DNA of 64,000 nucleotides from Rhizomicrobium sp. (GTDB lineage: Bacteria; Pseudomonadota; Alphaproteobacteria; Micropepsales; Micropepsaceae), in NCBI GenBank assembly GCA_025451875.1, contig JANWJQ010000164.1, positions 1 through 64,000 on the forward strand. The letters run 5' to 3'. Shown here piece by piece: positions 45,257-63,307 of the stretch (its first letter is position 1; every line of letters starts with the position of its first letter). Under the pieces are notes generated by a model. It had not been told where the DNA came from. It searched no databases and saw nothing but the letters and a program-made list of their open reading frames with translations. The translations under genes were made by a program, and so were the position numbers.

Positions 45257-46543
45257 ATGAACGCCGCCCCCAAGATCGTGGACTCGGTCCTGCGCGAAAT
45301 CGAAGCGCGCGAAGACCAGATCGTTGCCCTCACACAGGATCTGATCCGCTTTCCCACCGTCAATCCGCCGGGAGAAGCCTACCAGCCCTGTGCCGAATAT
45401 CTGGGCAATCGCCTCCTCAAGCGCGGCTTTCAGGTGGAATACATCCGCGCCGAAGGAACGCCGGGTGATAGCGACAAATATCCGCGCATCAATGTGGTCG
45501 CGCGCCGCGAAGGCAAGCGCAAAGGGCCGTGCGTCCACTTCAACAGCCATATCGACGTGGTGCAGACCGGCGCGGGATGGACGGTCGATCCGTTCGGCGG
45601 AGAAGTGAAAGACGGCAAGGTCTATGGCCGCGGCGCCTGCGATATGAAAGGCGGCCTCGCCGCTTCCGTCGTCGCGGTGGAAGCATTGCTGGATTCCGGC
45701 TTCGATCTTCCGGGTGCGGTCGAGATTTCCGGCACGGTCGATGAAGAATCCGGAGGCTATGGCGGCGTCGCCTATCTGGCGGAGCGCGGATGGTTCTCCC
45801 AGCCGCGCGTCGATCACGTCATCATTCCCGAGCCGCTGAATGTCGATCGCGTCTGCATCGGCCATCGCGGCGTGTGGTGGGCGGAGATCGAAACCTTGGG
45901 CCGCATCGCGCATGGCTCGATGCCCTTTCTCGGCGACAGCGCCATACGCCACATGAGCGCCGTGCTGGAGAAAATCGAGCACGAACTCTATCCCGCCCTC
46001 GCCGCGCGCCATTCGGATATGCCGGTGGTGCCCGAAGGCGCGCGCCAGTCCACCATGAACATCAACTCGCTGCATGGTGGCGAAGGCGAAGAGTTCACGG
46101 GGTTGCCGGTGCCCTGCGTCGCCGATTCCTGTCGCATGATCATCGATCGCCGCTTTCTGATCGAAGAAACGCTGGAGTCGGTGCAGGACGAAGTAAAAGC
46201 GCTGCTGGACCGCGTTGCCGCCGAACGGCCGAGCTTCAAATACAAATTACGCGAAATTTTCAGCGTGCGGCCGTCGATGGCGGATCGTGATGGCCCGGTG
46301 GCGTCGGCGACGGCAAAGGCTGTGCGTCAGATTCTCGGCAAGGAAGCGCAGATCGTCTGCTCGCCGGGCACTTACGATCAGAAGCATGTCGATCGCATCG
46401 GCAAGCTGAAGGATTGCATCGCCTATGGCCCCGGCGTGCTCGATCTGGCGCATCAGCCGGATGAATGGGTGGGCATCGCCGACATGGTCAATTCGGCCAA
46501 GGTGATGGCTGTCTCGACCATGGACCTGCTGACGCGCGGCTAA
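45257..46543 (+). CDS. M20-family peptidase/deacylase (ArgE/DapE-like)
   Basis: TQDLIRFPTVNPPGEAYQPCAEYLG; CVHFNSHIDVVQTGAGWTVDPFGGEVKDGKVYGRGACDMKGGLAASVVAVEALL; GTVDEESGGYGGVAYL. Confidence 0.95.
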   Translation: MNAAPKIVDSVLREIEAREDQIVALTQDLIRFPTVNPPGEAYQPCAEYLGNRLLKRGFQVEYIRAEGTPGDSDKYPRINVVARREGKRKGPCVHFNSHIDVVQTGAGWTVDPFGGEVKDGKVYGRGACDMKGGLAASVVAVEALLDSGFDLPGAVEISGTVDEESGGYGGVAYLAERGWFSQPRVDHVIIPEPLNVDRVCIGHRGVWWAEIETLGRIAHGSMPFLGDSAIRHMSAVLEKIEHELYPALAARHSDMPVVPEGARQSTMNINSLHGGEGEEFTGLPVPCVADSCRMIIDRRFLIEETLESVQDEVKALLDRVAAERPSFKYKLREIFSVRPSMADRDGPVASATAKAVRQILGKEAQIVCSPGTYDQKHVDRIGKLKDCIAYGPGVLDLAHQPDEWVGIADMVNSAKVMAVSTMDLLTRG

Positions 46544-49500
46544 TATTCGAACTGGTAACTGAGGCCCACGCTGCTGCCATTGTCCTGCGCGGCGCTGCCT
46601 TTGGTGGCAGTCGCATCGGTCATGGTGCTGAGGGTCGCCTGCGCTTTCAGCTTGCGCGTGAGGTCCACCTGCACCTGAACCTGCGTGCCGCCGGACAGAC
46701 TCTGCTTGGCGCCGACATAGACGTTGCGCGCCACATATTTTCCCGCTTCGACCGTCGTCTGCTGATCGCTGCCCGCCGCGCCGCCACTGGTGCTGCCAAC
46801 GGAAAGACGGTCGAGACGCAGCATCTTGCGCAGCGATCCCAGCGGATTGAAGCCGGAGCCGATGCCGCCGAGCGACGCGACGGCCTGTGCGATCTGCGCC
46901 AACTGCAATGGCGTGAGCTGTTTCACACTCTGCTGGAACAGTAGATGCGCCAGCACTTCGTCCTGCGGCAGTTGCGGCGAACTGGAGAGCGAAATCTTCG
47001 GCGCGGAGGCATAACCACTCACCGTCAATGTTGCCGTCACACCGCCGGATGTCGTCTGCGCCACGAAATTGAGCGTTGGGTCGAGGCGGTTGCGCACGCC
47101 GGTGCCGTCAAAGCGTATCTCGCCGCTGGTGAAATCCAGCACCTGCCCCGCCATGCTGAACGTGCCGCGATTCATCTTGAACCCACCGGTGGCGTAAGGC
47201 GTGGCGCTGGTGCCGGTCAGATGGATGCGCCCGCCCAGATCGGCATCGATGCCGTGACCGCGCACGAAGATCTGCCCGCGCGTCGTCACCGTGACATCGA
47301 GCGCGACGGAACTTGCGGGCGCCGGTGGCGGCGGCGGCTTCTGGCCGCGCCGGCGCACATCCAGAACCGCGACTTCCGGCGGGAACCGATCCGGCAGATT
47401 GATCTCGCCATGGGTGACGGAAATATTGCCCGAGAGATTCATCACCCCTCTCAGCTTGCCCGAAAGCTTCGCATCGCCCGAGAACGTCACCGTCATCAAA
47501 TCGCTGACAATGGGCCTGGCGTTCTGTGCCTTGATGCTGATGTCGATGGGAATGCCCGGCGCGCCGAGATCGATGGTGCCGCTGCCCGTGACCGTTCCGG
47601 GCCCGGCGGTGCCGGAAAGCTGCGTGATATGCAGCACATCGCCATCGGCCCGCACTGTGGCATTGATCGCGCTGATCCGTGCGCCACGCGCGAAATCATG
47701 CATGTCGCCGTTGCTCAGCCTGGCGCTGCCGCTTGCGCGTGGCGCGGCAACGGTGCCGCCGATGTTCATATCGACCGCCAGCGCGCCACTGGCCTGTCGC
47801 CCGTCCACCGCGAGGATGGGATTGAATATGGAAAGATCCGCGTTGCCGGCAAGATGAAGATTGAGCTTGCCCGCCTGCAGTGGCGCTTCGCCGGTGAGTG
47901 TCAGATGCACCGAAGCGCCAGCCGTCAGCGACGCGTTCACCGTGCCCGTCTTGCCGTGCAGGACGCCATGCAGATCGATATTGGCTGGCGCCACGGCATT
48001 TGCCGAGTAATCACTGATCCGCAGGCCGTGCCCTTGCAGCGTGAACGCGCCTTGTGGCGCATCCAGCGTGCCGGTCAGTTTCGCGGTGCCAGAAAGCGTG
48101 CCCTCCGCCGCCAGATCCGGCAGGAAGGCCTGAAGCGTATCGGCACGAATGCCTTGCGCGGACAGCGAAACCGCGAGCTCGGGCGTGAGGCTTCCGGACA
48201 ATTGCACGTCGCCACCGCCCACATCGGCGGAAAGATGATCCACCGAAATGCCCTTCGCGAAGTCGATCTGCGCCGGCGCCCGTAATACGATGGTCTGTTT
48301 GCGCCATTCGCCGTTGAATTTCTGCAACGCGATCTTCTGCTTGGGCACATCCAGCACGGCGCTGGCCGTGACCTGCGCCGGATCTCCGGCTGCGTCATGC
48401 AACACCGATTTCAGCGCGACGGCGAGCTTGTCGAGTGGCCCGCGCAGCTGTGCCTCCGTGTCGGCGGAGATGCCGCCGGTTTCCGCTTCGCGTGTCGTGA
48501 GCGCCAGCGCGAAGGACGGTTTTGCGAATGGATCGTCGACGGTGCCGCGCAGTGTGGCCGATGCGACCTTCAACCCGGAAACGGAAAGGTTCGACGCTTG
48601 CGCCTGAATGGCCACGGTGGACCGCGCGCCATGCGCTTCCAGCTCGACGGCCGCGCTCGAGCTTCCGGCGATCTTCGTGCCGATGAAAGTGGCCATGTCG
48701 GCGATGTTCTTGAGATCGATCTTCGCGTTGCCGGTGACCGGCCCGGCTTGCGGAAGCGTAACGGCGGCGTGCGCGTCGAGCGATTTCCATTGCGCCGCAA
48801 GTTTCGCGTTTTTCGCCTTCCCGCCCGCCGCTGTCGTCATATCGGCGTCGATGGAAATCGGTGCGTTGTCGAGGCTGCCTTGCACCCGCAACTGCGCGGA
48901 TACCGGATTGGGAAGGCCCTGCGCCTGCAACACCAATCCGACATGCTGGCGCATGAAGCCCCGGCTTGCCATATCCGCGCCGCCGGTCGCATGAAGCTGC
49001 GCCGTTTCCAGCGGGCCAGCCACTGTGCCGGAAAGCGTGGCACTGCCGTTCAGCGTGCTCGCAAGACGCGAAAGATCGGGCAGGCCGATCAAAGCGCTGT
49101 AGTTCAGGCTTTTGCTTTTGAAGCTTCCCGCTGCCTGCAATTTCACGCCCGCGCCTTGCAACGAAACTTTCGAGTCCATGATGTCGCTGCCGTCGAGCGC
49201 GGCCTGAAGCGACAGCACCGCGTTGTGCCCCAGCACGCGCGCGATCAGCGATGGGCCTTCGGCATTCATGCGACCGTTCAGTTCGAGCGTCGTTTTCTTC
49301 GCGTCCTGCGTCAGACCGACATCGAAGATCGCCGAGCCGCGAACATCTTCACCTTGTAGAGCTGCAAAGGGCGCCAAAGCAGGAACGGTGATTTTGGCGG
49401 CAAGCTTCGTTGTGCCGCGCGTGTCCGCGACGCCGTTGACCGTAACCAGCGGATGGGTGACGGAGAAACGCACAGGCCGCGTCGCCTTGGTGAGATCCGC

Positions 49501-50553
49501 GTGCGTCTTGATCAGAACCGGCGCCGACGCAAACAGGCTCGGATGATCGCCCGCGATGCGAATACCAGTCGCGACACCGACAAGATCCACCCTGCCATTG
49601 TCGCCTGTGACGTCCGCTTCAAGCTGCGGGATGGCATTGCCCGATACCGTTACGTTCTGCGCCTGCAATTTCGCTGTGACTTGCGGGGCATCGAACGCGC
49701 CCTGCACATGGCCCTGCAACGCCATGGATGACCAGGCCAGATCGGCGCTCGGCTGCATCGCCGGCGCATGGGCGGAGAAGTCGATATCGGCGTTGCGATC
49801 CGCCAGCGAGATCGTTCCATGGCCCGCGGCACGCAACGCGCCCGCCGAAAGCTGTACAGCGATCGTGTTCGCGCCGCGATCGCCCGCCGCACGGGCCTCA
49901 AGATTGATTGGCTTGAGACCCGGCAAACCGATCAATGCCGCCAATATGCCGTTTGCACCTTCCGCGATGGAGACCGTGCCGTTGGCCACATCGTTGGCAA
50001 TGCCACCCTGCACCACATAGCGGTCACCATTATCGAGCCGCGAGACGGTGAGATCGGCACGCGCCTGATGCACAGAGAGGTAGTGCAGAGAGCCTTGCCC
50101 CTTGAGCAGCGCCGCGTGTCCCATCACCCCGGCCGCGATTTCTATGCGCGGAATGGAAAGCGCTTCGACGTCTATTTTCGGCGTTGTGCCTTCCGAACTT
50201 TCTTTCGCTTGCGGCAGGCGCCGCATCATCGCCCGCGCCGCGGTAACGCGATGGATGAGAATATGATTGTCGGCCGCCGGCAGCGCGGACCATGCGAGCG
50301 ATAGATCCTCGATCCGCAGCCACACGCCTTTCGCATCGCTGATCTCCACCACATCCGCGTGGATATCATTGGGCAGATCGCCACTCAGACCCTGGACGGC
50401 GACGGTGCCGCCCGACAACTCTTCGATGAGAAAAGCGATTGTCGCATGTCCCGGCGGTGTGCGCAGAAGCCCGATGAACAGCAGCGCGAACACCGCCAGC
50501 CCGATAAGGCCCCAGCGGGTAAAGGATTGCACAAGGGAGAGCCGGTCACGCAT
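46540..50553 (-). CDS. tamB: Translocation/assembly module protein TamB
   Basis: Large AsmA-like repetitive protein. C-terminal DUF490 motifs (GGFKMNRGTFSMAGQVLDFTSGEIRFDGTGVRNRLDPTLNFVAQT...VSGYASAPKISLSSSPQLPQDEVLAHLLFQQ) and C-terminal VGLSYQFEY. Adjacent to tamA. Confidence 0.93.
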   Translation of the reverse strand: MRDRLSLVQSFTRWGLIGLAVFALLFIGLLRTPPGHATIAFLIEELSGGTVAVQGLSGDLPNDIHADVVEISDAKGVWLRIEDLSLAWSALPAADNHILIHRVTAARAMMRRLPQAKESSEGTTPKIDVEALSIPRIEIAAGVMGHAALLKGQGSLHYLSVHQARADLTVSRLDNGDRYVVQGGIANDVANGTVSIAEGANGILAALIGLPGLKPINLEARAAGDRGANTIAVQLSAGALRAAGHGTISLADRNADIDFSAHAPAMQPSADLAWSSMALQGHVQGAFDAPQVTAKLQAQNVTVSGNAIPQLEADVTGDNGRVDLVGVATGIRIAGDHPSLFASAPVLIKTHADLTKATRPVRFSVTHPLVTVNGVADTRGTTKLAAKITVPALAPFAALQGEDVRGSAIFDVGLTQDAKKTTLELNGRMNAEGPSLIARVLGHNAVLSLQAALDGSDIMDSKVSLQGAGVKLQAAGSFKSKSLNYSALIGLPDLSRLASTLNGSATLSGTVAGPLETAQLHATGGADMASRGFMRQHVGLVLQAQGLPNPVSAQLRVQGSLDNAPISIDADMTTAAGGKAKNAKLAAQWKSLDAHAAVTLPQAGPVTGNAKIDLKNIADMATFIGTKIAGSSSAAVELEAHGARSTVAIQAQASNLSVSGLKVASATLRGTVDDPFAKPSFALALTTREAETGGISADTEAQLRGPLDKLAVALKSVLHDAAGDPAQVTASAVLDVPKQKIALQKFNGEWRKQTIVLRAPAQIDFAKGISVDHLSADVGGGDVQLSGSLTPELAVSLSAQGIRADTLQAFLPDLAAEGTLSGTAKLTGTLDAPQGAFTLQGHGLRISDYSANAVAPANIDLHGVLHGKTGTVNASLTAGASVHLTLTGEAPLQAGKLNLHLAGNADLSIFNPILAVDGRQASGALAVDMNIGGTVAAPRASGSARLSNGDMHDFARGARISAINATVRADGDVLHITQLSGTAGPGTVTGSGTIDLGAPGIPIDISIKAQNARPIVSDLMTVTFSGDAKLSGKLRGVMNLSGNISVTHGEINLPDRFPPEVAVLDVRRRGQKPPPPPAPASSVALDVTVTTRGQIFVRGHGIDADLGGRIHLTGTSATPYATGGFKMNRGTFSMAGQVLDFTSGEIRFDGTGVRNRLDPTLNFVAQTTSGGVTATLTVSGYASAPKISLSSSPQLPQDEVLAHLLFQQSVKQLTPLQLAQIAQAVASLGGIGSGFNPLGSLRKMLRLDRLSVGSTSGGAAGSDQQTTVEAGKYVARNVYVGAKQSLSGGTQVQVQVDLTRKLKAQATLSTMTDATATKGSAAQDNGSSVGLSYQFEY

Positions 50554-52391
50554 CAGAACGCCTGCCCCAAACCGATATAGACTTCGAAGGCGTCGCCGCC
50601 ATGCACGCGCGTGAGCGGCACCGCAACGTCGAGGCGCACCGCGCCCAACGCCGTATAGTATCGCGCGCCAATACCCGCGCCTACGCGCACGTCTCCGGTG
50701 AAGAGCGCGCCGCTGGCGCTGGCCTGCCCCGCATCCACGAACGCTGCGCCGCCCCAATCCTCACCGATGCGCTGACGGAATTCGATGGTGCCTGCATCCA
50801 CCGATTTCGCGCCCACCGGATTGCCGTCTGGGAACAATGGCCCGATGGATTGATAAGCGAAACCGCGCACCGTGGCGCTGCCGCCGGCATAGAGGCGCTG
50901 ATCCGGCGGCAGCTCCATATTGGAGCCGCCCAGAATGCTGCCCGCCAGGCCGCGCAATGCCAGCACCGAGCGGCCGTCCCCGCTGAAATCGAAATAGGTG
51001 GAGGCGGACGCCTGCAGCGCGAAGAAAGTGAGGTCGCTATAGCCGAAAGATTTCGTGGGCGTCACCGCCAGCGACGCGCGCCAGCCATTTGTCGGATCGC
51101 GCAGCACATCAGCGATGCCGGTGCTGTCATAGCTCACCGTCAACGGCAGGCTGATCAGTTGATACAGACGGGCCATGCCTTCCTGCGAAACCTCATCATG
51201 CGCCAGCGACAATCCGACACCGCCGGTCCACATCTGCGAAAACTTGCGGCGCAGAAATCCGGCAATCGTTTCGGCTTTCTGGTTGTAGGCATCCAGATCC
51301 TGCTTAATGGCCGAAACATCGAATTCCAGCGTCTGATCGGGCCGCAGGAAGAGCGGCTTGAGGAATTGCGCGGAGAAAGTGTAGCCGAGGCCCGTGGTCG
51401 AGTTGCCAAGCCCCGTTCCCGCGGCGGTGAGGTTCAATTGCTCCGCATTGCCGAACAGATTGCGATGCGACCATGTCGTCGAAAGGCTGATGCCCAGATC
51501 GGTGGAATAGCTGGCGGTGATGGCGACCGCATGGCGCTTGCGCTCCTGCACGTCGAAGACCAGCGGAACGCGTCCGTCCGCGTCCAGATGGTCGGCCGCA
51601 TGCACGGAGACGCCGGAGAAAACGCCCTGCGCCGCCAGCGCCTGGCGCGCCTCCTCGATCTTGCTGGGCTTGTAGCGGTCGCCGGTTTTGATCTTCAACG
51701 CGCGGCGTGCAAAGCTTTCATGAACGTCGGCCAGCCCCTTGAAGGTGATCGCGCCGATCTCGACCTGCGCGCCCGCATCGACCTTGAACGACACGTTCAG
51801 TTCATGTTTCGCGTCATCGGCATAGGCGACGGGCGCATCCACTTTGGCGAGCGCGAAGCCGTCTTCCTGCAGCGCATTCAGAAGCCGCGTCTGTGCATCG
51901 AGCACATTGCCCGCGACCGCCGGATCGCCGCTCTTGATGCCGAGCGACGCGCGGTCGGCATCTGGCAACGCGCCTTCGATCTCAACCTTGCCCAGACGAA
52001 AGAGCGGTCCCGTGTCGATGGAGACATCGACGCCGACGCTCGTTCCCGCCGGCACGGTATCCAGATAGGCGGCGAGGCCGGGATCGGCCAGCGCATGGCC
52101 GCCGATGGTGATGCCCACCCTGTTGAGATAATAGCCGAAACTGTCGAGCGCGGTTTGCAGCCGCGGAATATCGCTGCGCGCCCGCCCGATCAGCGCGAAA
52201 GGCGGCACCGGCACCTTGCCATGCAAGGTTACGAGCTGCGCGCTCTGCGCGAGCGTCGCGTCTATATTGTCGGAACCTGTCTTGGCGATGGTGACGGTGT
52301 AAGGCTGCGGGTCGGCGGCGCGCGCGGGTGCGGCGGCCATGAAGGCCGCGGACAGCAACAACCCGATATGCCGCAACCGGCGAAAATTCAT
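50553..52391 (-). CDS. tamA: Autotransporter assembly complex outer-membrane protein TamA
   Basis: Signal peptide; POTRA-like repeats; LYAGGSATVRGFAYQSIGP (VRGF motif); C-terminal beta-barrel ending FEVYIGLGQAF. Start set at MNFRRLRHIG. Confidence 0.92.
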   Translation of the reverse strand: MNFRRLRHIGLLLSAAFMAAAPARAADPQPYTVTIAKTGSDNIDATLAQSAQLVTLHGKVPVPPFALIGRARSDIPRLQTALDSFGYYLNRVGITIGGHALADPGLAAYLDTVPAGTSVGVDVSIDTGPLFRLGKVEIEGALPDADRASLGIKSGDPAVAGNVLDAQTRLLNALQEDGFALAKVDAPVAYADDAKHELNVSFKVDAGAQVEIGAITFKGLADVHESFARRALKIKTGDRYKPSKIEEARQALAAQGVFSGVSVHAADHLDADGRVPLVFDVQERKRHAVAITASYSTDLGISLSTTWSHRNLFGNAEQLNLTAAGTGLGNSTTGLGYTFSAQFLKPLFLRPDQTLEFDVSAIKQDLDAYNQKAETIAGFLRRKFSQMWTGGVGLSLAHDEVSQEGMARLYQLISLPLTVSYDSTGIADVLRDPTNGWRASLAVTPTKSFGYSDLTFFALQASASTYFDFSGDGRSVLALRGLAGSILGGSNMELPPDQRLYAGGSATVRGFAYQSIGPLFPDGNPVGAKSVDAGTIEFRQRIGEDWGGAAFVDAGQASASGALFTGDVRVGAGIGARYYTALGAVRLDVAVPLTRVHGGDAFEVYIGLGQAF

Positions 52392-52651
52392 TCCTGTTCC
52401 GTATCTGGCCGCAGCGCCTTGCGAAACACTCTGTCCCGTTTCAGATGCCATTCGCGGCTCATCGCGTCATGCCGCGTGGGATGGCGCTCCGCATAAAGGA
52501 AAATCCAGGCGCGGCCGCGCGTGGATTTCGCGCCTTTGCCGGAATTGTGCAGCCGCAGGCGCTTGTCGAGATCCGTCGTCCACCCGGTATAGGTCCGCCA
52601 GCTTCGCCCGGCCTCGCATCCCAGAACGTAGACGTAGAACGCTTTTTTCAT
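52388..52651 (-). CDS. GIY-YIG nuclease family protein
   Basis: KKAFYVYVLGCEAGRSWRTYTGWTTDLDKRLRLHNSGKGAKSTRGRAWIFLYAERHPTRHDAMSREWHLKR. Confidence 0.93.
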   Translation of the reverse strand: MKKAFYVYVLGCEAGRSWRTYTGWTTDLDKRLRLHNSGKGAKSTRGRAWIFLYAERHPTRHDAMSREWHLKRDRVFRKALRPDTEQE

Positions 52652-52733: not shown

Positions 52734-53096
52734 ATGGCCCTGCTCCTGACCCCGCAAATCATTGAAGGGGCTTATGAATTCCTACGCGCCACGCCGCCCT
52801 TCCGCAACTGGAAGCTGCCCCATGCCGATGAGGTCACCTTCGTGGTGTCCCGTCACAAAATGCATGTCGGCTATCACCGGGGATCGCGGCGCAAAATATA
52901 TTCCCATGAGATCGGCATCTCGTCGGCCTGCGTCGGCCATACAAACACGCTGCTGCGCACCATGGCGCATGAGATGATCCACCAGCATCAACAGCGCCAG
53001 CGGACCGATACGCCCAACACCGAACACAATGCAGAGTTCCTGCGGCTGGCGCGCATCGTTTGCCGCCATCATGGATGGGATGAAAAAGAGTTCTGA
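52734..53096 (+). CDS. SprT-like zinc metalloprotease domain protein
   Basis: TLLRTMAHEMIHQHQQRQRTDTPNTEHNAEFLRLARIVCRHHGWD (HExxH-type MAHEMIHQH). Confidence 0.85.
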   Translation: MALLLTPQIIEGAYEFLRATPPFRNWKLPHADEVTFVVSRHKMHVGYHRGSRRKIYSHEIGISSACVGHTNTLLRTMAHEMIHQHQQRQRTDTPNTEHNAEFLRLARIVCRHHGWDEKEF

Positions 53097-53099
53097 AAT

Positions 53100-53495
53100 T
53101 CAGCCCGGCACCGCGCCCAGCATGGCTTTTGCCGCGTGCGAAAGCTGAATCACGTTGAAGGGCTTTTGCAACGTCTTGATGGCGCGTTCGCGAACGAAGT
53201 CGGGCGGCGATTCAGTGTTGTATCCCGTCATGAACAGTACCTTCAGATCCGGACGCAACGCGAGCGCGCCTTCCGCCAGTTCGTAACCGCCAAGCCTCGG
53301 CATCTTGATGTCCGAGATCAGAAGCTCGATCTCGGGATGGCCACGCAGGATTTCCAACGCGCTCACGCCGTCACCCGCTTCGTAAACGGTGAAGCCGTCA
53401 TCCTTCAGCGTTTCCACGGCGACGATACGCAACATCGCTTCGTCTTCCGCGATGAGCACCGTGTGGTTTTCGGTTTGCGCTGAACCCATACTCAC
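53100..53495 (-). CDS. Single-domain response regulator
   Basis: VLIAEDEAMLRIVAVETLKDDGFTVYEAGDG; LLISDIKMPRLGGYELAE; VLFMTGYN; LQKPF. Confidence 0.92.
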   Translation of the reverse strand: MSMGSAQTENHTVLIAEDEAMLRIVAVETLKDDGFTVYEAGDGVSALEILRGHPEIELLISDIKMPRLGGYELAEGALALRPDLKVLFMTGYNTESPPDFVRERAIKTLQKPFNVIQLSHAAKAMLGAVPG

Positions 53496-54856
53496 TGGCC
53501 TTCGTCGTTGATCGCGCGCGGCAGCAGAATCGTGATGATCGTACCCGAACCCGGCGCGCTTTCGATGCCAAGATAGCCGCCCGATTGTCGCACAAAGCCG
53601 AAGGCCGTGCTCAATCCAAGACCGGTTCCCTGCCCCAGCGGCTTGGTGGTGAAGAAGGGGTCTATCGCCTGGCGGCGCGTCTCTTCATCCATGCCGGCGC
53701 CATCGTCGCGCACGCGCAGCTCCACATAATCGCCGGTGGCGAAGCCATCGCCATCGAGCGGCGGCGTCATCTGCGCGATATCACGGGTCTCGATGGCAAG
53801 CCTTCCGCCACTCGGCATTGCATCGCGCGCATTGATCGCCAGATTGAGAATGACGTTCTCCATCTGGTTCACATCGCAGAGCACCAGCCACTTCGCGTCG
53901 AGCGCGAGCGCGGTCTCCACATGCGCGCCGACGGACTGGCGGATGAGCTCGCTCATGCCCGCGATCAATGCGCTCAGGCTTACCGCTTTGGGCGTTAGCG
54001 GCTGGCGGCGCGCAAAAGCCAGAAGGCGCTGCGTGAGGCCGGCCGCGCGGCGCAGCCCTTCCTCCGCGGATTCGATATAGCGCGCCAGCGGCTTGGCGTC
54101 CTCACCCAGCCGGCGCTGCAGGAGCTGGAGATTGCCCATCGCGATCATCAGCAGATTGTTGAAATCATGCGCGATGCCGCCGGACAATTGCCCAATGGCT
54201 TCCATCTTCTGGCTCTGGCGCAGCGCTTCCTCGGTTTTGTGCCGCTCTTCCATTTCGCGCTGAAGCTGCGCGTTCAGTTGGGCCAGATTGTCCGCGCGCA
54301 ATTTCAACTCTGTATTGGCCCGCGCCAGCGCACGTTGGGAAACACTCAGCACCACCATAACGAGCGCGCCCATGACGACGAGCAAACCGATGCCGAGATA
54401 GCGCGCGATGCGGCGCTGCACCGTCTCTGCGGTCGCCCAGACATAGACGGTGCCGATCTTCACATTTTTCTGCGCGATCGGGACCGAGATTGCGAGCAGA
54501 CCCAGCTTCGAAAGCTGCGATACATCGCTGAGATTATCCGGCAGCGCGCCGACGCGCGAGGTCTGGGCCGTCAACTTTCCGGCCTGATTGTAAACCCCGA
54601 CCGCCTGCAGCTCCGGATTCACCTTCATCGCATCGACATATTCCTGCGCCGATTTGCGGTCGTCGAAAATCACCGCCGCAGTTTCGTTGGCCGCAAGGAT
54701 AGAGGCCTGTTCGGTGAAATCCTTCACCTGCTGGGTGCGATAGATGTTTTCCTCATAGAGCGCGATCGCGACGCCGGAGAAGATCAGGAAAGCGGCCGCG
54801 ATCAGCGCCAGCAGAACCGGAATTCGCCATTGCGCGGCGCTGTGCGGATTGTTCAT
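53492..54856 (-). CDS. Membrane histidine kinase with CHASE8-like periplasmic domain
   Basis: [46 protein letters not shown]-box [27 protein letters not shown]; HATPase [21 protein letters not shown]. Confidence 0.92.
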
Positions 54857-55419
54857 GGCGCGGCCTTCCGCGGCTTAACAGTGCGGGCCAGATCCAGAAG
54901 CTTGGAGCTGATCGAAAGCCCACCCTTGGCGGCGGCCGCATCGTCAATGTCGAAGCGCACATGGTTCTGCTCGACGACGAAGGCGACGATGCCCGGCGCC
55001 GGCGCGCCGGAATCGGTCACCGTCAGCACAGGCTTTCCGTCGAAGGCGCGCAGCATATCGCTTTCGGCTTGCGGATCGGCGGCATCCACGAACGCGACCT
55101 GGCAGGATGCATCGCCCGGCGCTGCGTTGCGCCGCACCGAAACCGGATGCTCGCCGATCCGCTGATCGGCCACCGCCTTGTCAAGCGCCGCGCCAAAAGG
55201 ATCGCGGCCGAGGATGCAGATCGCGATGGGACCGTTCGGCGTGGGAAACACAGAGGCCGGCCAATCGACGAATGGCAGCATCTTGTAGAGATAGGCGCCC
55301 TTCACCGCATATTCGACCGAATTTTCGCCCGCGAAAGATGGAGCAGCGGCAGTCACGGCGAACGCCGTTGCCGCAATCCATGCGCGCGATTTGCCCACGC
55401 CCATGTCTAGAATTTCCAC
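54853..55419 (-). CDS. YfiR-family periplasmic protein
   Basis: EYAVKGAYLYKMLPFVDWPASVFPTPNGPIAICILGRDPFGAALDKAV...PVLTVTD; signal peptide. Confidence 0.88.
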   Translation of the reverse strand: MEILDMGVGKSRAWIAATAFAVTAAAPSFAGENSVEYAVKGAYLYKMLPFVDWPASVFPTPNGPIAICILGRDPFGAALDKAVADQRIGEHPVSVRRNAAPGDASCQVAFVDAADPQAESDMLRAFDGKPVLTVTDSGAPAPGIVAFVVEQNHVRFDIDDAAAAKGGLSISSKLLDLARTVKPRKAAP

Positions 55420-57332
55420 CGCGTATCGACGAAGAAGCTGCGCTTGATCTCATCGCCCGGCGCGAATTCCAGATGATGGTCGTGCAACAGGTTGAAGCCG
55501 GAGAGCGACAGCTCGATCTTCTCGGTGATCATCCAGCCCAGCCGTGCATTCAGTTCGACATAAGACGGCACATGCGGATCGGGAAGCCGGCCGACATAGC
55601 GGAAGTCCGCATCGAAGGTGACGCTGTCACTGAGGTTCATGGAGGAGCGCAGCGACGCCTGATGGTGCGGATCGTTACCCTGTTGCGACAACCCCAAAAG
55701 CCCGCTCGCGCCGGGTTTGAATTTGAAGCTCTCGCTCTGAATGTTCGCACCCGCCGACAGCTTCCACCAATCGGCCGCTTCATAGGTGGCCCAACCCTCA
55801 ATGCCGTACACCCGGCCTTTCATGCCATTGCCCCAATGAAGCGGCAGAAACCCGGATACCTGGTCGAGTTCGATGCTTTTAAGGTCGTCATATTCATCGT
55901 CGAACGCCGACAGCGAAAGCGAAGCGTTCTGCGATAACTGCCCGCGATAACCCAGTTCGTAAGCCGTCAATTTTTCCGGAAGGAAATCGGGATTGCCGTT
56001 GAGAAAACGCGTCGGCCCCAGATCTTCGCCCACATGGGTGTCGAACGGCGTCGGCGAACGGACGGCATAGGAAATCGCGGCCCACAGCATATTGCTGTCA
56101 TCCAGCCGCCAGGATGCGCGTGCGTTCGGCATGGGCGTAATGCCCGAATAGGGATCGTTCTCGAATTTCAGGCCGAGCTTCAGGTCGAAATTATCCGACA
56201 GTGCCATCTGATCCTGGATGAATATGTCCGAGAGATTCAGACTGCCCCGGTTCGGAATGAAGAGAAGGGAGGTCGCCGGGCCTATCTGGTTGGTAATGGA
56301 ATAATGGCTCAGGCGCTGGCCGGCACCTACCACGATGTTGTTCCAGCGTCCCAGCGAGAAATTGTATTGGGCGTCGATATTGTAGGTATCGACCGTGAAG
56401 CCGGCGCTACCGCCGGTCGTGGTGCGTTCGACATTGTCGTAATAGGCCAGCACCTGCAGCGAACTTCCGTCCGCGAAATCATGGCTCCAGTTCGCCGACA
56501 GATTGCCGCCGGAGATCAGTCCGTCGGCAGCCGCGCCATTGTTCTCGCGTCCATCATAGACATCGCCCTGCACCGTCAGCGTGTCGTCGCCCGGCGTCCA
56601 GTCCAGGCGAAAGCCGCCTTGCGGCTTGTACCAGCCGTCATGCGCGGAGGTGTCGAAAGACTTGTCGCGGAAGGTTTTGATATAGGCGCGATAGGTGAGA
56701 TCGTCGCTCAGTACGCCGCCATATTGCAGGCTGGCGCTTGCATATTGATTGCCCGCGCCGAATTCCAGCACACCGCCCTGCGTGTCGGAGGATTTGCGCG
56801 TGACGATGTTGATGACGCCGTTGACGGCGTTCGCGCCCCACAAGGTCGCGCCCGGCCCGCTGATGACTTCGATGCGCTCGACATTTTCGGGCAGCACATC
56901 CTGCATGTCCCAATACATGCCGGAGAAGAGCGGATTATAGACGCTGCGGCCGTCGATCAGCACGAGCAGCTTGTCGGAGAAATTCTGCGCGGCGGAATTT
57001 CCGCTGAAGCCGCGCGCGGTGATGATGTAATTGGCGGGGCTGGTTTGCGCGACCTGAAGGTTGGGCGCCAGGCGCAGCATTTCCGGAATGCTGGTCGCGC
57101 CGGAACGCACGATATCGTCATGCGTGATCACATAGATCGCGGCGGGCGCGGCGCTCAGCTTCTGGGCGCGCTTGGAGACGGAGGTGATCTCCACATTGCC
57201 CAGCTGCTCGATGGAAAGCTTGCTGAAATCCGCGGCGGCAATCTGCTGCTGCGCCTGCGCAGGCGCCAAACAGCCTCCTCCGAGAGCGGCGGTAAGAATG
57301 GCCGCCAGCCCGTAGCCCCTCGTCCTTGGCAT
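55407..57332 (-). CDS. TonB-dependent receptor of the YfiR/kinase module
   Basis: LSIEQLGNVEITSVSKRAQKLSAAPAAIYVITHDDIVRSGATSIPEMLRLAPNLQV; DGRSVYNPLFSGMYWDMQDVLPENVERIEVISGPGATLWGANAVNGVINIVTR; C-terminal VDTRWKF. Confidence 0.94.
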   Translation of the reverse strand: MPRTRGYGLAAILTAALGGGCLAPAQAQQQIAAADFSKLSIEQLGNVEITSVSKRAQKLSAAPAAIYVITHDDIVRSGATSIPEMLRLAPNLQVAQTSPANYIITARGFSGNSAAQNFSDKLLVLIDGRSVYNPLFSGMYWDMQDVLPENVERIEVISGPGATLWGANAVNGVINIVTRKSSDTQGGVLEFGAGNQYASASLQYGGVLSDDLTYRAYIKTFRDKSFDTSAHDGWYKPQGGFRLDWTPGDDTLTVQGDVYDGRENNGAAADGLISGGNLSANWSHDFADGSSLQVLAYYDNVERTTTGGSAGFTVDTYNIDAQYNFSLGRWNNIVVGAGQRLSHYSITNQIGPATSLLFIPNRGSLNLSDIFIQDQMALSDNFDLKLGLKFENDPYSGITPMPNARASWRLDDSNMLWAAISYAVRSPTPFDTHVGEDLGPTRFLNGNPDFLPEKLTAYELGYRGQLSQNASLSLSAFDDEYDDLKSIELDQVSGFLPLHWGNGMKGRVYGIEGWATYEAADWWKLSAGANIQSESFKFKPGASGLLGLSQQGNDPHHQASLRSSMNLSDSVTFDADFRYVGRLPDPHVPSYVELNARLGWMITEKIELSLSGFNLLHDHHLEFAPGDEIKRSFFVDTRWKF

Positions 57333-57371
57333 CGTGTCCCCTGCTCAGCCCACAACCATCGGCAGGGGCAG

Positions 57372-57396
57372 AACGCGGGGGGTAGTCAAAAGTTCC
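57372..57396 (-). promoter_or_regulatory. Predicted EcfG-type promoter of the TonB receptor/YfiR/kinase operon
   Basis: Minus strand GGAAC-TTTTGACTACCCCCCG-CGTT: exact -35 and -10 core with N16 spacing, ~40 nt upstream of the start at 57332. Confidence 0.72.
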
Positions 57397-58631: not shown

Positions 58632-59684
58632 GTGAGTTCGAAGGGCTTTTCGGAAGACCACCCTGCCAGGGTGGCCGTTTCATCCGTGACCGATCCGCTG
58701 AATGCGGAACTGGCGCGCCGCGTCCTTCAGGCCGCGCCCACCATCATCTATGTCTATGACCTCCAAGACGCGCGCAGCGTTTTCCAGAACCGCCGCTTCG
58801 CCGAACTTCTCGGCCATGCCGAAACGCCGGCCGACGAATGGCGCGGTTTCATGCATCCCGAAGATGAGAAGCGTTTTGCGCAGCATCGCGCCCGGCTGAA
58901 GACGATCGCGCCCGGCGAGACGCTGTTCTGGGAATTTCGCATGCGCGATGCGGGCGGCCAATGGCGGTGGTTTCTCGGGCGGGATGTCCTGCTTTCGCAG
59001 GATGATGCCGGCAAGCCTCTGCTCATTGTCGGCAACGCGGCGGACATCACCGAGCAGAAGGATGCCGAGGAGCATATGGAAATCCTCGCCGGCGAGATGC
59101 GCCATCGCGCCAAGAACCTCATCTCGCTTGTCGAAGGGATCGGACGCTTGTCCCGTCCCAAAAATCGCTCCGACATCGACGCCTTCATCGATGTTTATAT
59201 GGGCCGCCTGAAGGCGCTTCTGCACACCGGCGATATTGTTTTGTCGTCCAATCAGCGCATGGCGTATCTGTCGGCCGTGGTGGAAACCGCATTAAAGCCT
59301 TTTCAAAACGACGATTCACCGGAACGCATCGCCCTGCGGGGACCGGCGGTGATCGTGTCGGAAAAAACAGCGGGCGGCCTCGCATTGGCCCTCCACGAAC
59401 TGGCGACCAACGCCGTGAAATATGGCGCTCTGTCGGTGCCCGCCGGAAAAGTCTCGCTGCAATGGACCTTGACGCCGCACGAAACCGGCGAGCGGTTCGC
59501 CATGGAATGGCAGGAAAGCGATGGCCCGCCGGTCGCGCCGCCGCAAGCCGAAGGCTTCGGCGGCAAAGTGATCCGCCACAGCATCGCGCATGAACCCGCC
59601 GGGCGGATCGCGCTCGAATATTTGCCGGACGGCCTGCGTTGCAGTTTCACTTTTGAGATTCCGTTCGGAAACCCGAATTCCTGA
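58632..59684 (+). CDS. PAS-domain HWE-family histidine kinase
   Basis: PAS LQDARSVFQNRRFAELLGH...; H-box EILAGEMRHRAKNLISLVEGIGRLS; N-box LALALHELATNAVKYGALS; WxE-like FAMEWQESDGPPV. GTG start. Confidence 0.9.
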   Translation: MSSKGFSEDHPARVAVSSVTDPLNAELARRVLQAAPTIIYVYDLQDARSVFQNRRFAELLGHAETPADEWRGFMHPEDEKRFAQHRARLKTIAPGETLFWEFRMRDAGGQWRWFLGRDVLLSQDDAGKPLLIVGNAADITEQKDAEEHMEILAGEMRHRAKNLISLVEGIGRLSRPKNRSDIDAFIDVYMGRLKALLHTGDIVLSSNQRMAYLSAVVETALKPFQNDDSPERIALRGPAVIVSEKTAGGLALALHELATNAVKYGALSVPAGKVSLQWTLTPHETGERFAMEWQESDGPPVAPPQAEGFGGKVIRHSIAHEPAGRIALEYLPDGLRCSFTFEIPFGNPNS

Positions 59685-59688
59685 CCGG

Positions 59689-61458
59689 CTAGTGCAGAGT
59701 CTCGCCGGTGCCGGCGCCTTTGGACGCGAAGGCCGGATCGTTTGACGGCATGTCGCGCGATACGCGAATGGCGGGGCCTTGCGTGCCCGAATGCACCGGC
59801 AGGCGCAGCGACAGACGCGATTTTCCTTCCGCCGTTTTCTCGATCCAGAATTCGCCTTTGAGCTGTTCGGCCAATGCGGCGAGAATCCTCTGCGGGGATG
59901 GCCGCCCCTTGGCGAGCGCCGCGGAAGCGAACACGCCGTCCTCGATCCACAGCAGAAGATGATCGGGGCCGTCGCCGCCGAAATGCAGATCGACATGGCG
60001 GATGGCTTCATCCTTCTGCGGCACGAAGAGTTCGAACGACAAGGCTTCCACCGCGAAGAAGGACACCGGCGTCGCCATGTCCGGTGGCAATAGCCATTCT
60101 TCGGCGTCGATGGTGAGCCGGTAGCGAATGTTGCTTTCGACGGCGACGGTCCGCATCTGCTCGCCAAGCTCGATGAACAGGCGGCGCATATCGAGGATCG
60201 GCGTTGTGTCGTTCATCTCCATGAGGCGCTGGATCAGTGTCAACGCACCCACACGCGCCAGTATCTGCGAAAACGCCAGGCGGCTCCCCGCATCGGCGAT
60301 GTTCTGCGAATAAAGGCTGATCAGGCTGGCGACGATCTGCAGATTGTTCTTGATGCGGTGATGGATTTCGCGCGCCATCGCCGATTTCTGCGCCAGCGCA
60401 AAATTGAGCGTGCGGTCGCGGTCGCGGATGGATGTCGCCATATTCTTCATTTCGTCGCCGAGAACCCGGAACTCGTCGGGTGCTTCCTCAAGCTCGGTCA
60501 ATTCCAGGGCGAAATGGTTTTGCCCATAGGCTGCGGAAACGCGCTTCAGATAGGTCGTCCAGCGGATGACGAAACGCTCGGTGCCGAGCCACATCGCAAT
60601 GGACGCCAGGATCACCATCAGAAGCGGCAGCAGGATATTTCCCAACAGATATGCCTGCGAAACGCCGAAAGGCAGCGGCTCTTCCATCGCGAACGCAATC
60701 AGCCGCCGGCTGTTTTCGATCCGCTCCGCCGTCCAGCGCCAGCGCACATGGTCGCCGGTGTCTGCATAGAAGGTGTGCTGCTTGTGATCGACGCCGGCTT
60801 TCGCCACCGCCTTGTTCAAACCGTCGGGAACAGCCCGGTTGGATGCGATGATGGTGCCGCCGCGATCCACAATCAGCATCAGCCCGTAGGGCGGCAATCT
60901 TCCGTAGGGGCTTGTCTGGCTCACCCAGCGCAGATCGAGCGCCGCGCTCAATGCGCCCTTGAAGGCGCCGGACGCATCGTGAAGCGGCAATGTGTAGGGA
61001 AGCACGGGGCGCTCGGCCGCCGCGCTGGCAAGCACCGGCGGCACACCGGCGGCTTTTCGCGGCTGAATCCGCTTCCACCAGGGAAGTTTGGAATAATCAG
61101 GCACATCGAACGCACCTGTGGATGAGCATACCGGCTTTCCCTGCGCGTTCACGAAGGTCAGGTTGAGTATGTTGGGCAGGCCGATGACGGCAGTCTTCAG
61201 CATTCTGCCGCAGGCGACGGGATCGGCATCCAGTTCGGAACGCGCGGACAAGCCCTGCAGCAGATGCGCGGTGCCGGAGAAGATGTTCAGTTCGTTATGG
61301 GTCGCGTAGATCGCAGTCTGCCGCAGCACGTCGTCGATCGCCGCCTGGCGCGCGCGCACATGCATGACGCCCTGGGCGATGCTGGCGATGGCGAGCGGCG
61401 CGAGCGCCAACACGACGATCAACATCAGCTGCGCGCGAAGTGACTTCGCCTTCAACAC
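59689..61458 (-). CDS. HisKA_2-type kinase-like protein with Cache-like periplasmic domain and degenerate ATPase region (possible PhyP-like PhyR phosphatase)
   Basis: H-box AMAREIHHRIKNNLQIVASLISLYSQNI retained. The expected ELxxNAxKHA N-box reads FFAVEALSFELFVPQ, and the DDGxG region reads EDGVFA. Adjacent to ecfG. Confidence 0.75.
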   Translation of the reverse strand: MLKAKSLRAQLMLIVVLALAPLAIASIAQGVMHVRARQAAIDDVLRQTAIYATHNELNIFSGTAHLLQGLSARSELDADPVACGRMLKTAVIGLPNILNLTFVNAQGKPVCSSTGAFDVPDYSKLPWWKRIQPRKAAGVPPVLASAAAERPVLPYTLPLHDASGAFKGALSAALDLRWVSQTSPYGRLPPYGLMLIVDRGGTIIASNRAVPDGLNKAVAKAGVDHKQHTFYADTGDHVRWRWTAERIENSRRLIAFAMEEPLPFGVSQAYLLGNILLPLLMVILASIAMWLGTERFVIRWTTYLKRVSAAYGQNHFALELTELEEAPDEFRVLGDEMKNMATSIRDRDRTLNFALAQKSAMAREIHHRIKNNLQIVASLISLYSQNIADAGSRLAFSQILARVGALTLIQRLMEMNDTTPILDMRRLFIELGEQMRTVAVESNIRYRLTIDAEEWLLPPDMATPVSFFAVEALSFELFVPQKDEAIRHVDLHFGGDGPDHLLLWIEDGVFASAALAKGRPSPQRILAALAEQLKGEFWIEKTAEGKSRLSLRLPVHSGTQGPAIRVSRDMPSNDPAFASKGAGTGETLH

Positions 61459-61488: not shown

Positions 61489-62121
61489 TTAGCCGGGAGC
61501 CTTCTCCGTGACCGACCGTCCGAATTTGAAAAATGCATCGGTGGGATCTTCTGGATGCTCCGACCGCGCCGGTAATACGCCATCTTTTCCTTCGACAAGG
61601 CTTTCCAGCCGCTTGCGCGCACGCGACACGCGGCTCTTGATCGTTCCGACCGCGCAACCGCAAATCGCGGCGGCTTCATCGTAACTGAACTCCCCAGCGG
61701 TCAAAATCAGCGCTTCCTTCTGTTCGAACGGAAGCATGTTGAACGCGCGCATGAGATCCGACAGGTCGAGCGAGGCATGCTGCTCGGGCTCCATCGCATC
61801 GGAATGAATCGATTCCGCTGCCGCGTAGTTGGTGACCGTCTTGGCGCGGCGATGGTTCGAATAGAACTCATTGCGCAGAATGACAAAAAGCCAGGCTTTC
61901 AGATTCGTGCCCGGGCGGAATTTGTCGCGCGCCTGAAGCGCCTTGGCGAGCGTTTCCTGCGCTAGGTCGTCGGCCAGATCGCGCTTGCCGCACAAGGAAC
62001 GCGCGAAGGCACGCAGCACCGGAACCATTTCAACCAGACCGGCGCGGAATGTCTTTTCCTCTTCCTTCGTCATCGGACGAGGAGCGTCTTGGTGTTCGTG
62101 GGCTTCCAGAGGCCGGTTCAT
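61489..62121 (-). CDS. ecfG: General stress response ECF sigma factor EcfG
   Basis: LCGKRDLADDLAQETLAKALQARDKFRPGTNLKAWLFVILRNEFYSNHRRAKT; AFNMLPFEQKEALILTAGEFSYDEAAAICGCAVGTIKSRVSRARKRL; next to nepR. Confidence 0.94.
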   Translation of the reverse strand: MNRPLEAHEHQDAPRPMTKEEEKTFRAGLVEMVPVLRAFARSLCGKRDLADDLAQETLAKALQARDKFRPGTNLKAWLFVILRNEFYSNHRRAKTVTNYAAAESIHSDAMEPEQHASLDLSDLMRAFNMLPFEQKEALILTAGEFSYDEAAAICGCAVGTIKSRVSRARKRLESLVEGKDGVLPARSEHPEDPTDAFFKFGRSVTEKAPG

Positions 62122-62333
62122 GCATCCGACTCCTTTTTGCCGTCAATTTTCTGAAGCAGCGCCATGAACTCGTCCGGGACGGGTTCGGAGGCGACCGTGT
62201 CGAAGAACTTGCGAAGACCCTGCGTGATAGCCTTCTGCTGCGCCCTGTGGGTCTGCGGCTTGGGCGTTCGGGTGCCTGCGCGGGCGACGCCTTCGGCGCT
62301 CACGACACCGTCCTCGCGGATTTTGTCGGCCAT
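62118..62333 (-). CDS. nepR: Anti-sigma factor NepR
   Basis: ITQGLRKFFDTVASEPVPDEFMALLQKID is the NepR core; overlaps ecfG and is divergent from phyR. Confidence 0.92.
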   Translation of the reverse strand: MADKIREDGVVSAEGVARAGTRTPKPQTHRAQQKAITQGLRKFFDTVASEPVPDEFMALLQKIDGKKESDA

Positions 62334-62447: not shown

Positions 62448-62473
62448 GGAACTTTGTTTTTGCCCGCCGCGTT
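62448..62473 (+). promoter_or_regulatory. Predicted EcfG-type promoter of phyR
   Basis: GGAAC-tttgtttttgcccgccg-CGTT: exact core with N17 spacing, ~50 nt upstream of the phyR start. Confidence 0.75.
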
Positions 62474-62521: not shown

Positions 62522-63307
62522 ATGAGTATGACCGCCACCCTCGGACCGCATCTTCCCTATTTGCGCCGGTATGCCAGAGCCTTGACGGGCTCACAGACCA
62601 GCGGGGACGCTTATGTGCGCGCCTCACTTGAGGCGCTCTTGGAAGGAAACGCCGAACTGGCGAAGGATGTTCCCCCGCGCATTGCCCTCTACCGGCTGTT
62701 TCATGTGCTGTGGTCGTCTTCCGGAAAATATGAATCTGCCGCATCGGGCGAAAAGCGCGGCGGCGTCGAAGGGCGGCTGCAATCTTTGTTGCCCACCAAT
62801 CGCGAAGCCCTGCTGCTGACCGCCGTGGAAGGCTTCAGCATGCCGGAAGTCGCCAAGATCCTGGACTGGAGCGAAGGCGATGTGGAGCAGGCGATCAACG
62901 CCGCGCTCAAATCCATCGACCGCGATCTGGAATCGCGCGTTCTCATCATCGAGGACGAATCCATCATCGCGCTCGATATCGAGAACCTCGTCACCGAGAT
63001 GGGCCACAAGGTCACCGGCATCGCCACCACGCGCGACGACGCTATCCGCATGGCGAAGGAGCAGAAGCCCGACGTCATCCTCACCGACATCCAGCTCGCC
63101 GATGGCAGCTCTGGCATCGATGCGGCGGTCGCGATCCTGAAGGATTTCGACATCCCGGTGATCTTCATCACCGCCTATCCGGAACGCCTGCTCACCGGCG
63201 AACGTCCGGAGCCAACCTATCTCATCACCAAGCCGTTCAGCCGCGACACCGTGCGCGCGACGCTCGGCCAGGCGCTGTTCTTCCATCGCTCGATGGCGCC
63301 GGCATAA
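62522..63307 (+). CDS. phyR: Response regulator PhyR (sigma-like domain plus receiver)
   Basis: EcfG-like N-terminus (LLPTNREALLLTAVEGFSMPEVAKILDWSEGDVEQAINAALKSI), then receiver VLIIEDESIIALDIENLV...VILTDIQLADGSSGIDAA...VIFITAYPERLLTGERPEPTYLITKPFS. Confidence 0.95.
   Translation: MSMTATLGPHLPYLRRYARALTGSQTSGDAYVRASLEALLEGNAELAKDVPPRIALYRLFHVLWSSSGKYESAASGEKRGGVEGRLQSLLPTNREALLLTAVEGFSMPEVAKILDWSEGDVEQAINAALKSIDRDLESRVLIIEDESIIALDIENLVTEMGHKVTGIATTRDDAIRMAKEQKPDVILTDIQLADGSSGIDAAVAILKDFDIPVIFITAYPERLLTGERPEPTYLITKPFSRDTVRATLGQALFFHRSMAPA

Follow-up and report, generated by a model that had tools for sequence, protein, structure and literature searches.

A predicted EcfG-type promoter recurs upstream of a TonB receptor, YfiR-like protein and histidine kinase operon of Rhizomicrobium and other Alphaproteobacteria

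In the YfiBNR (TpbB) system of Pseudomonas aeruginosa, an outer-membrane component, the lipoprotein YfiB, is combined with the periplasmic protein YfiR and an inner-membrane protein that has a CHASE8/PAS-type periplasmic domain and a diguanylate cyclase (GGDEF) as output. F162 and L183 of YfiR are part of the proposed YfiN-binding surface, whose counterpart in YfiN is AAVVF (PMC3375315), and C71-C110 is the redox-sensitive pair of YfiR (PMC4655355). That some Yfi systems have kinases as outputs and do without YfiB was already reported by Malone et al. (2012; PMC3375315), and our search for papers on DUF4154 or YfiR-like proteins retrieved nothing beyond the YfiR structure work. In the general stress response, the EcfG (ECF15) regulons of Sphingomonas and Sphingopyxis include GGAAC-N16-CGTT promoters, as in S. 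granuli (PMC7083833), and PhyR can receive input from REC-only proteins in other Alphaproteobacteria (PMC5964349, PMC5898713).

The window analyzed here, a stretch of 64,000 nucleotides from Rhizomicrobium sp. (contig JANWJQ010000164.1), contains a four-gene operon that brings these two themes together (Table 1). The original prediction had read its genes as a TonB receptor, a YfiR-family protein, a kinase with a periplasmic domain and a single-domain regulator, and Pfam and NCBIfam found the corresponding domains in all four. The adjacent TOL_0244 receptor and TOL_0243 YfiR-like genes each score above the curated cut-off (687 bits vs 645 for NF053590; 133.7 bits vs 125 for NF053591, with 130.8 bits for PF13689). 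The kinase matches the histidine kinase structure 5idj (E 2e-42) and also CckA (5idm), and is under the HK_near_YfiR_like cut-off (NF053592, 87.6 vs 194 bits). The genes had also been described as overlapping, which holds for the yfiR/kinase and kinase/receiver junctions (4 nt each), whereas the receptor stop and the yfiR ATG are 2 nt apart; junctions this tight imply co-expression. Downstream of the operon are TamA/BamA-like and TamB-like genes (46540-52451, minus strand) and, beside them, a SprT-like gene (52734-53096, plus strand), all named by eye from their translations.

Table 1. Positions of the operon, its predicted promoter and the stress core in the window.
Feature	Position	Strand	Basis or remark
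Four-gene signalling operon	53100-57332	-	
REC-only protein, probable detached receiver of the kinase	53100..53495	-	PF00072; best NCBIfam match is the CckA receiver end
Membrane histidine kinase, CHASE8-HisKA-HATPase_c, CckA-like catalytic core, periplasmic AAVIF	53492..54856	-	Pfam, NCBIfam, PDB
YfiR/HmsC-like periplasmic protein, DUF4154, TOL_0243 family	54853..55404	-	PF13689, NF053591
TonB-dependent receptor, plug and barrel, without STN domain, TOL_0244 family	55407..57332	-	NF053590; Pfam Plug, TonB_dep_Rec
EcfG-type promoter GGAAC-N16-CGTT (predicted)	57372..57396	-	Exact match, conserved in relatives
ecfG, ECF sigma factor	61489..62121	-	Sigma70_r2/r4 and PhyR_sigma2 domains; directly behind nepR
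nepR, approximate start	62118..62300	-	PF18557, 42 bits vs cut-off 25.7
EcfG-type promoter of phyR, GGAAC-N17-CGTT	62448..62473	+	
phyR	62522..63307	+	NF006623, 352 bits vs cut-off 240

The promoter motif predicted about 40 nt upstream of the first gene is indeed present as an exact match, whose end lies 40 nt from the receptor ATG, and our search of the operon's strand for a sigma-70-like site found none. One such match is weak by itself, since the whole genome holds 106 matches with spacers of 15-18, fewer than the 155 of the reversed-motif control. Raw motif counts were therefore rejected as evidence; in the window there are 8 matches vs a shuffled mean of 1.9. The extended motif GGAACTTT-N13/14-CGTT occurs at four sites in the source genome, and its reversed control at none; these sites precede the operon, phyR, a ferritin-like gene and a large unassigned ORF, and in relatives the extended motif precedes genes for Ysc84, MgtC and sensor kinases.

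Conservation of the motif was assessed in 13 same-genus relatives with a receptor above the family cut-off. Eleven of them carry the exact motif, with a spacer of 16 or 17, ahead of the receptor gene, and the other two each show a single -10 mismatch (GGAAC-N16-TGTT in G004, GGAAC-N16-GGTT in G011). As these receptors are only 40-90% identical to that of the window and the flanking DNA has diverged, the conserved motif is a footprint. Other TonB receptors, taken as a control, never carry the motif (0/15). Judged from this conservation across relatives, the presence of the motif upstream of the operon is far beyond chance.

A wider set of 80 named loci, searched within 250 nt upstream, shows the exact motif in 12/24 Alphaproteobacteria and in 0/53 others (Fisher 7e-8), with a background expectation of about 0.11 and no reversed motif in the same loci. 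The 24 include four of the genus members from the preceding paragraph, and three of these four have the motif. The motif-bearing Alphaproteobacteria include Caulobacteraceae, Phenylobacterium, Sphingobium nicotianae, Tsuneonella and Hyphomonadaceae. Since EcfG is described as confined to Alphaproteobacteria (PMC3892343), just such a distribution would be expected of an EcfG promoter. The link between the putative promoter and the module is recurrent, not universal, given that 14 further loci from a class-wide alphaproteobacterial sample all lack the motif, even though nine genomes of that sample encode PhyR-type domains above cut-off. Mapped on the receptor tree, the promoter states require at least seven changes, so that the promoter was gained or lost repeatedly.

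We consider it probable that the operon serves as an output of the general stress response and that its products form a YfiBNR-like trans-envelope relay with a phosphotransfer output. The first part is well supported by the promoter, and the original prediction of "a general stress response output, or a feedback input" is upheld in its first half by the exact motif in 11/13 genus members and its recurrence in Alphaproteobacteria; its second half fares poorly against a HisKA/CckA-like kinase and a receiver without FATGUY. In the cell, the operon would presumably depend on EcfG or its paralogue.

The strongest competing explanation, which we nevertheless find rather improbable, is that the receptor alone belongs to the stress regulon: EcfG would induce it for scavenging under stress, and the YfiR-like protein, kinase and receiver would be downstream passengers with a role of their own. 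Three relatives (G004, G008, G036) have a receptor without a kinase beside it, and in two of these, G036 and G008, the promoter is kept at the solitary receptor, as this explanation would have it; it also agrees with the finding that the coding strand within the operon contains no further EcfG site. Against it stand the gene junctions, which imply co-expression, the occurrence of receptor, YfiR and CHASE8 kinase together in most loci and in several phyla, and the treatment of the three as linked families by NCBIfam.

In one relative, the receptor gene has been exchanged. The kinase and receptor trees disagree, and G042 and G012 have kinases and receivers that are 82% and 83% identical, respectively, between syntenic DNA on both flanks, while their receptors share only 41% identity. 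We therefore conclude from the sequences that in G042 a different receptor gene took over the position of the old one, while the kinase core and the promoter, which is present in both genomes, were kept. A plug/barrel domain swap was considered for the G042 receptor and rejected: it is nearer the G011 type over its whole length, and its plug too is closer to that type (76% vs 61%), which indicates whole-gene exchange. Sister species that combine this kinase core and promoter with different receptors thus offer a natural experiment.

The source genome encodes EcfG, NepR and PhyR, and the genes predicted to lie about 5 kb away were located at 61.5-63.3 kb, about 4-5 kb from the operon; together with a PhyK-like kinase, this core spans 59.7-63.3 kb. 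Beyond the source genome, phyR is near the module only in G034 and G038, and G011 has a second phyR beside it. Proximity to phyR was thus rejected as general evidence, and the closeness seen here is mostly incidental, because most relatives keep the promoter with phyR unlinked. A second EcfG-like sigma factor of the source genome (L114, G000:C153:26665-27162) is 49% identical to the EcfG of the window, and either of the two could be the acting sigma factor.

Some genus members carry two PhyR genes, namely G011 (L042), G013 (L073/L079) and G035 (L071/L080); in G011 one phyR adjoins the receptor module in divergent orientation. Two HWE/HisKA2-type kinases are encoded at 58632-61458, between the operon and ecfG: a PAS-HWE kinase and the PhyK-like one, which scores far under the PhyK cut-off. 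The kinase at 58632 is a further candidate for a stress input.

The receiver bears on whether the module could instead act back on the stress response. Most other Alphaproteobacteria encode kinase and receiver as one hybrid protein, and the modules with a separate receiver, those of the window's genus, one alphaproteobacterial MAG and the gammaproteobacterium Frateuria, form a supported clade; the receiver thus has the look of a domain detached from a hybrid kinase. Its sequence lacks the FATGUY motif, showing FMTGYN in the window and LMTGYA and the like in relatives. Going by kinship, a phosphotransferase such as ChpT would be our guess for its target. In Frateuria terrea (L118), the split-receiver module is nested among alphaproteobacterial ones and lacks the EcfG motif; it was probably acquired by horizontal transfer.

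These features make it unlikely that the module is a feedback input that modulates the general stress response by phosphorylating the PhyR pathway or removing phosphate from it. Such a loop would fit an operon that the presumed stress sigma factor switches on, the closeness to phyR in the source genome, G038 and G034, the adjoining second phyR in G011 and the role of REC-only proteins elsewhere in the class. It is at odds with a kinase of the HisKA/CckA-like rather than the HWE/HisKA2 type, with the FMTGYN receiver and with the lack of linkage to phyR in most relatives. Slightly less likely still is that another ECF sigma factor with a GGAAC -35 element reads the motif and that the operon lies outside the general stress response, since, although the genome does encode further ECF sigma factors, the same exact motif occupies the phyR/nepR intergenic region in 15/26 phyR loci and is kept in G042, whose stress core is missing only in appearance. 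Indeed, G042 was rejected as a counter-example without EcfG, as its phyR-nepR-ecfG locus falls in a contig gap, contig C84 ending with the 3' end of phyR and C62 resuming past ecfG.

As for the relay within the preferred reading of a stress output, the YfiR-like protein can be aligned to the YfiR of P. aeruginosa (PDB 4xjy, E 0.0014; residue numbering derived from the full-length chain 4zhu). The equivalents of C71, C110, F162 and L183 are invariant in 11 orthologues, and position 160 has Val for Ile in the window protein and Val or Ile in 11/11 orthologues. The structural pair Cys145-Cys152 is absent, leaving the C71/C110 pair only. On the kinase side, the CHASE8 domain of the window protein contains AAVIF, and an AAVVF-like segment is found in 9/11 genus kinases, with AALSF in the other two; among wider homologues, only 32/71 have such a segment under a loose pattern. 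The conserved YfiR interface residues and the AAVIF of the kinase make control of the CHASE8 kinase by YfiR likely.

We therefore propose a scheme for the module. EcfG, or its paralogue, would transcribe the operon from GGAAC-N16-CGTT. The outer-membrane receptor would sense or import a ligand, and the periplasmic YfiR-like protein would carry the state of the receptor to the CHASE8 domain of the inner-membrane kinase, a signal path from receptor through YfiR to kinase in which the receptor, as its operon linkage suggests, may take the place of YfiB as outer-membrane partner. The kinase would phosphorylate the detached receiver, its putative partner, which would hand the phosphate on or act on a protein. 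If true, the scheme would connect signalling through an outer-membrane receptor with the general stress response of Alphaproteobacteria, and we found no such connection in the literature searched. Cultured relatives carrying the promoter, for example Sphingobium nicotianae and Tsuneonella rigui, make the prediction directly testable.

Compared with known systems, the module resembles the FATGUY single-domain regulators SdrG and MrrA in having a REC-only protein in a stress-linked setting, but its receiver lacks that motif (PMC5964349) and appears to derive from a hybrid-kinase receiver. It shares its promoter with the EcfG regulons of Sphingomonas and Sphingopyxis, although the main text of the searched papers on these regulons mentions neither TonB receptors nor a TonB-YfiR-kinase operon. 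The receptor and YfiR-like protein belong to the families TOL_0244 and TOL_0243 that accompany "HK near YfiR-like" (NF053590, NF053591, NF053592), whereas the kinase scores below the last of these and the EcfG-type promoter is outside the family definition. Finally, the module keeps the YfiBNR layout across the envelope, including the F162, L183, C71 and C110 positions of YfiR and the AAVVF-like segment, but differs in its YfiR disulfide complement, in having a TonB barrel where YfiBNR has a lipoprotein, and in signalling through a histidine kinase and receiver in place of a diguanylate cyclase.
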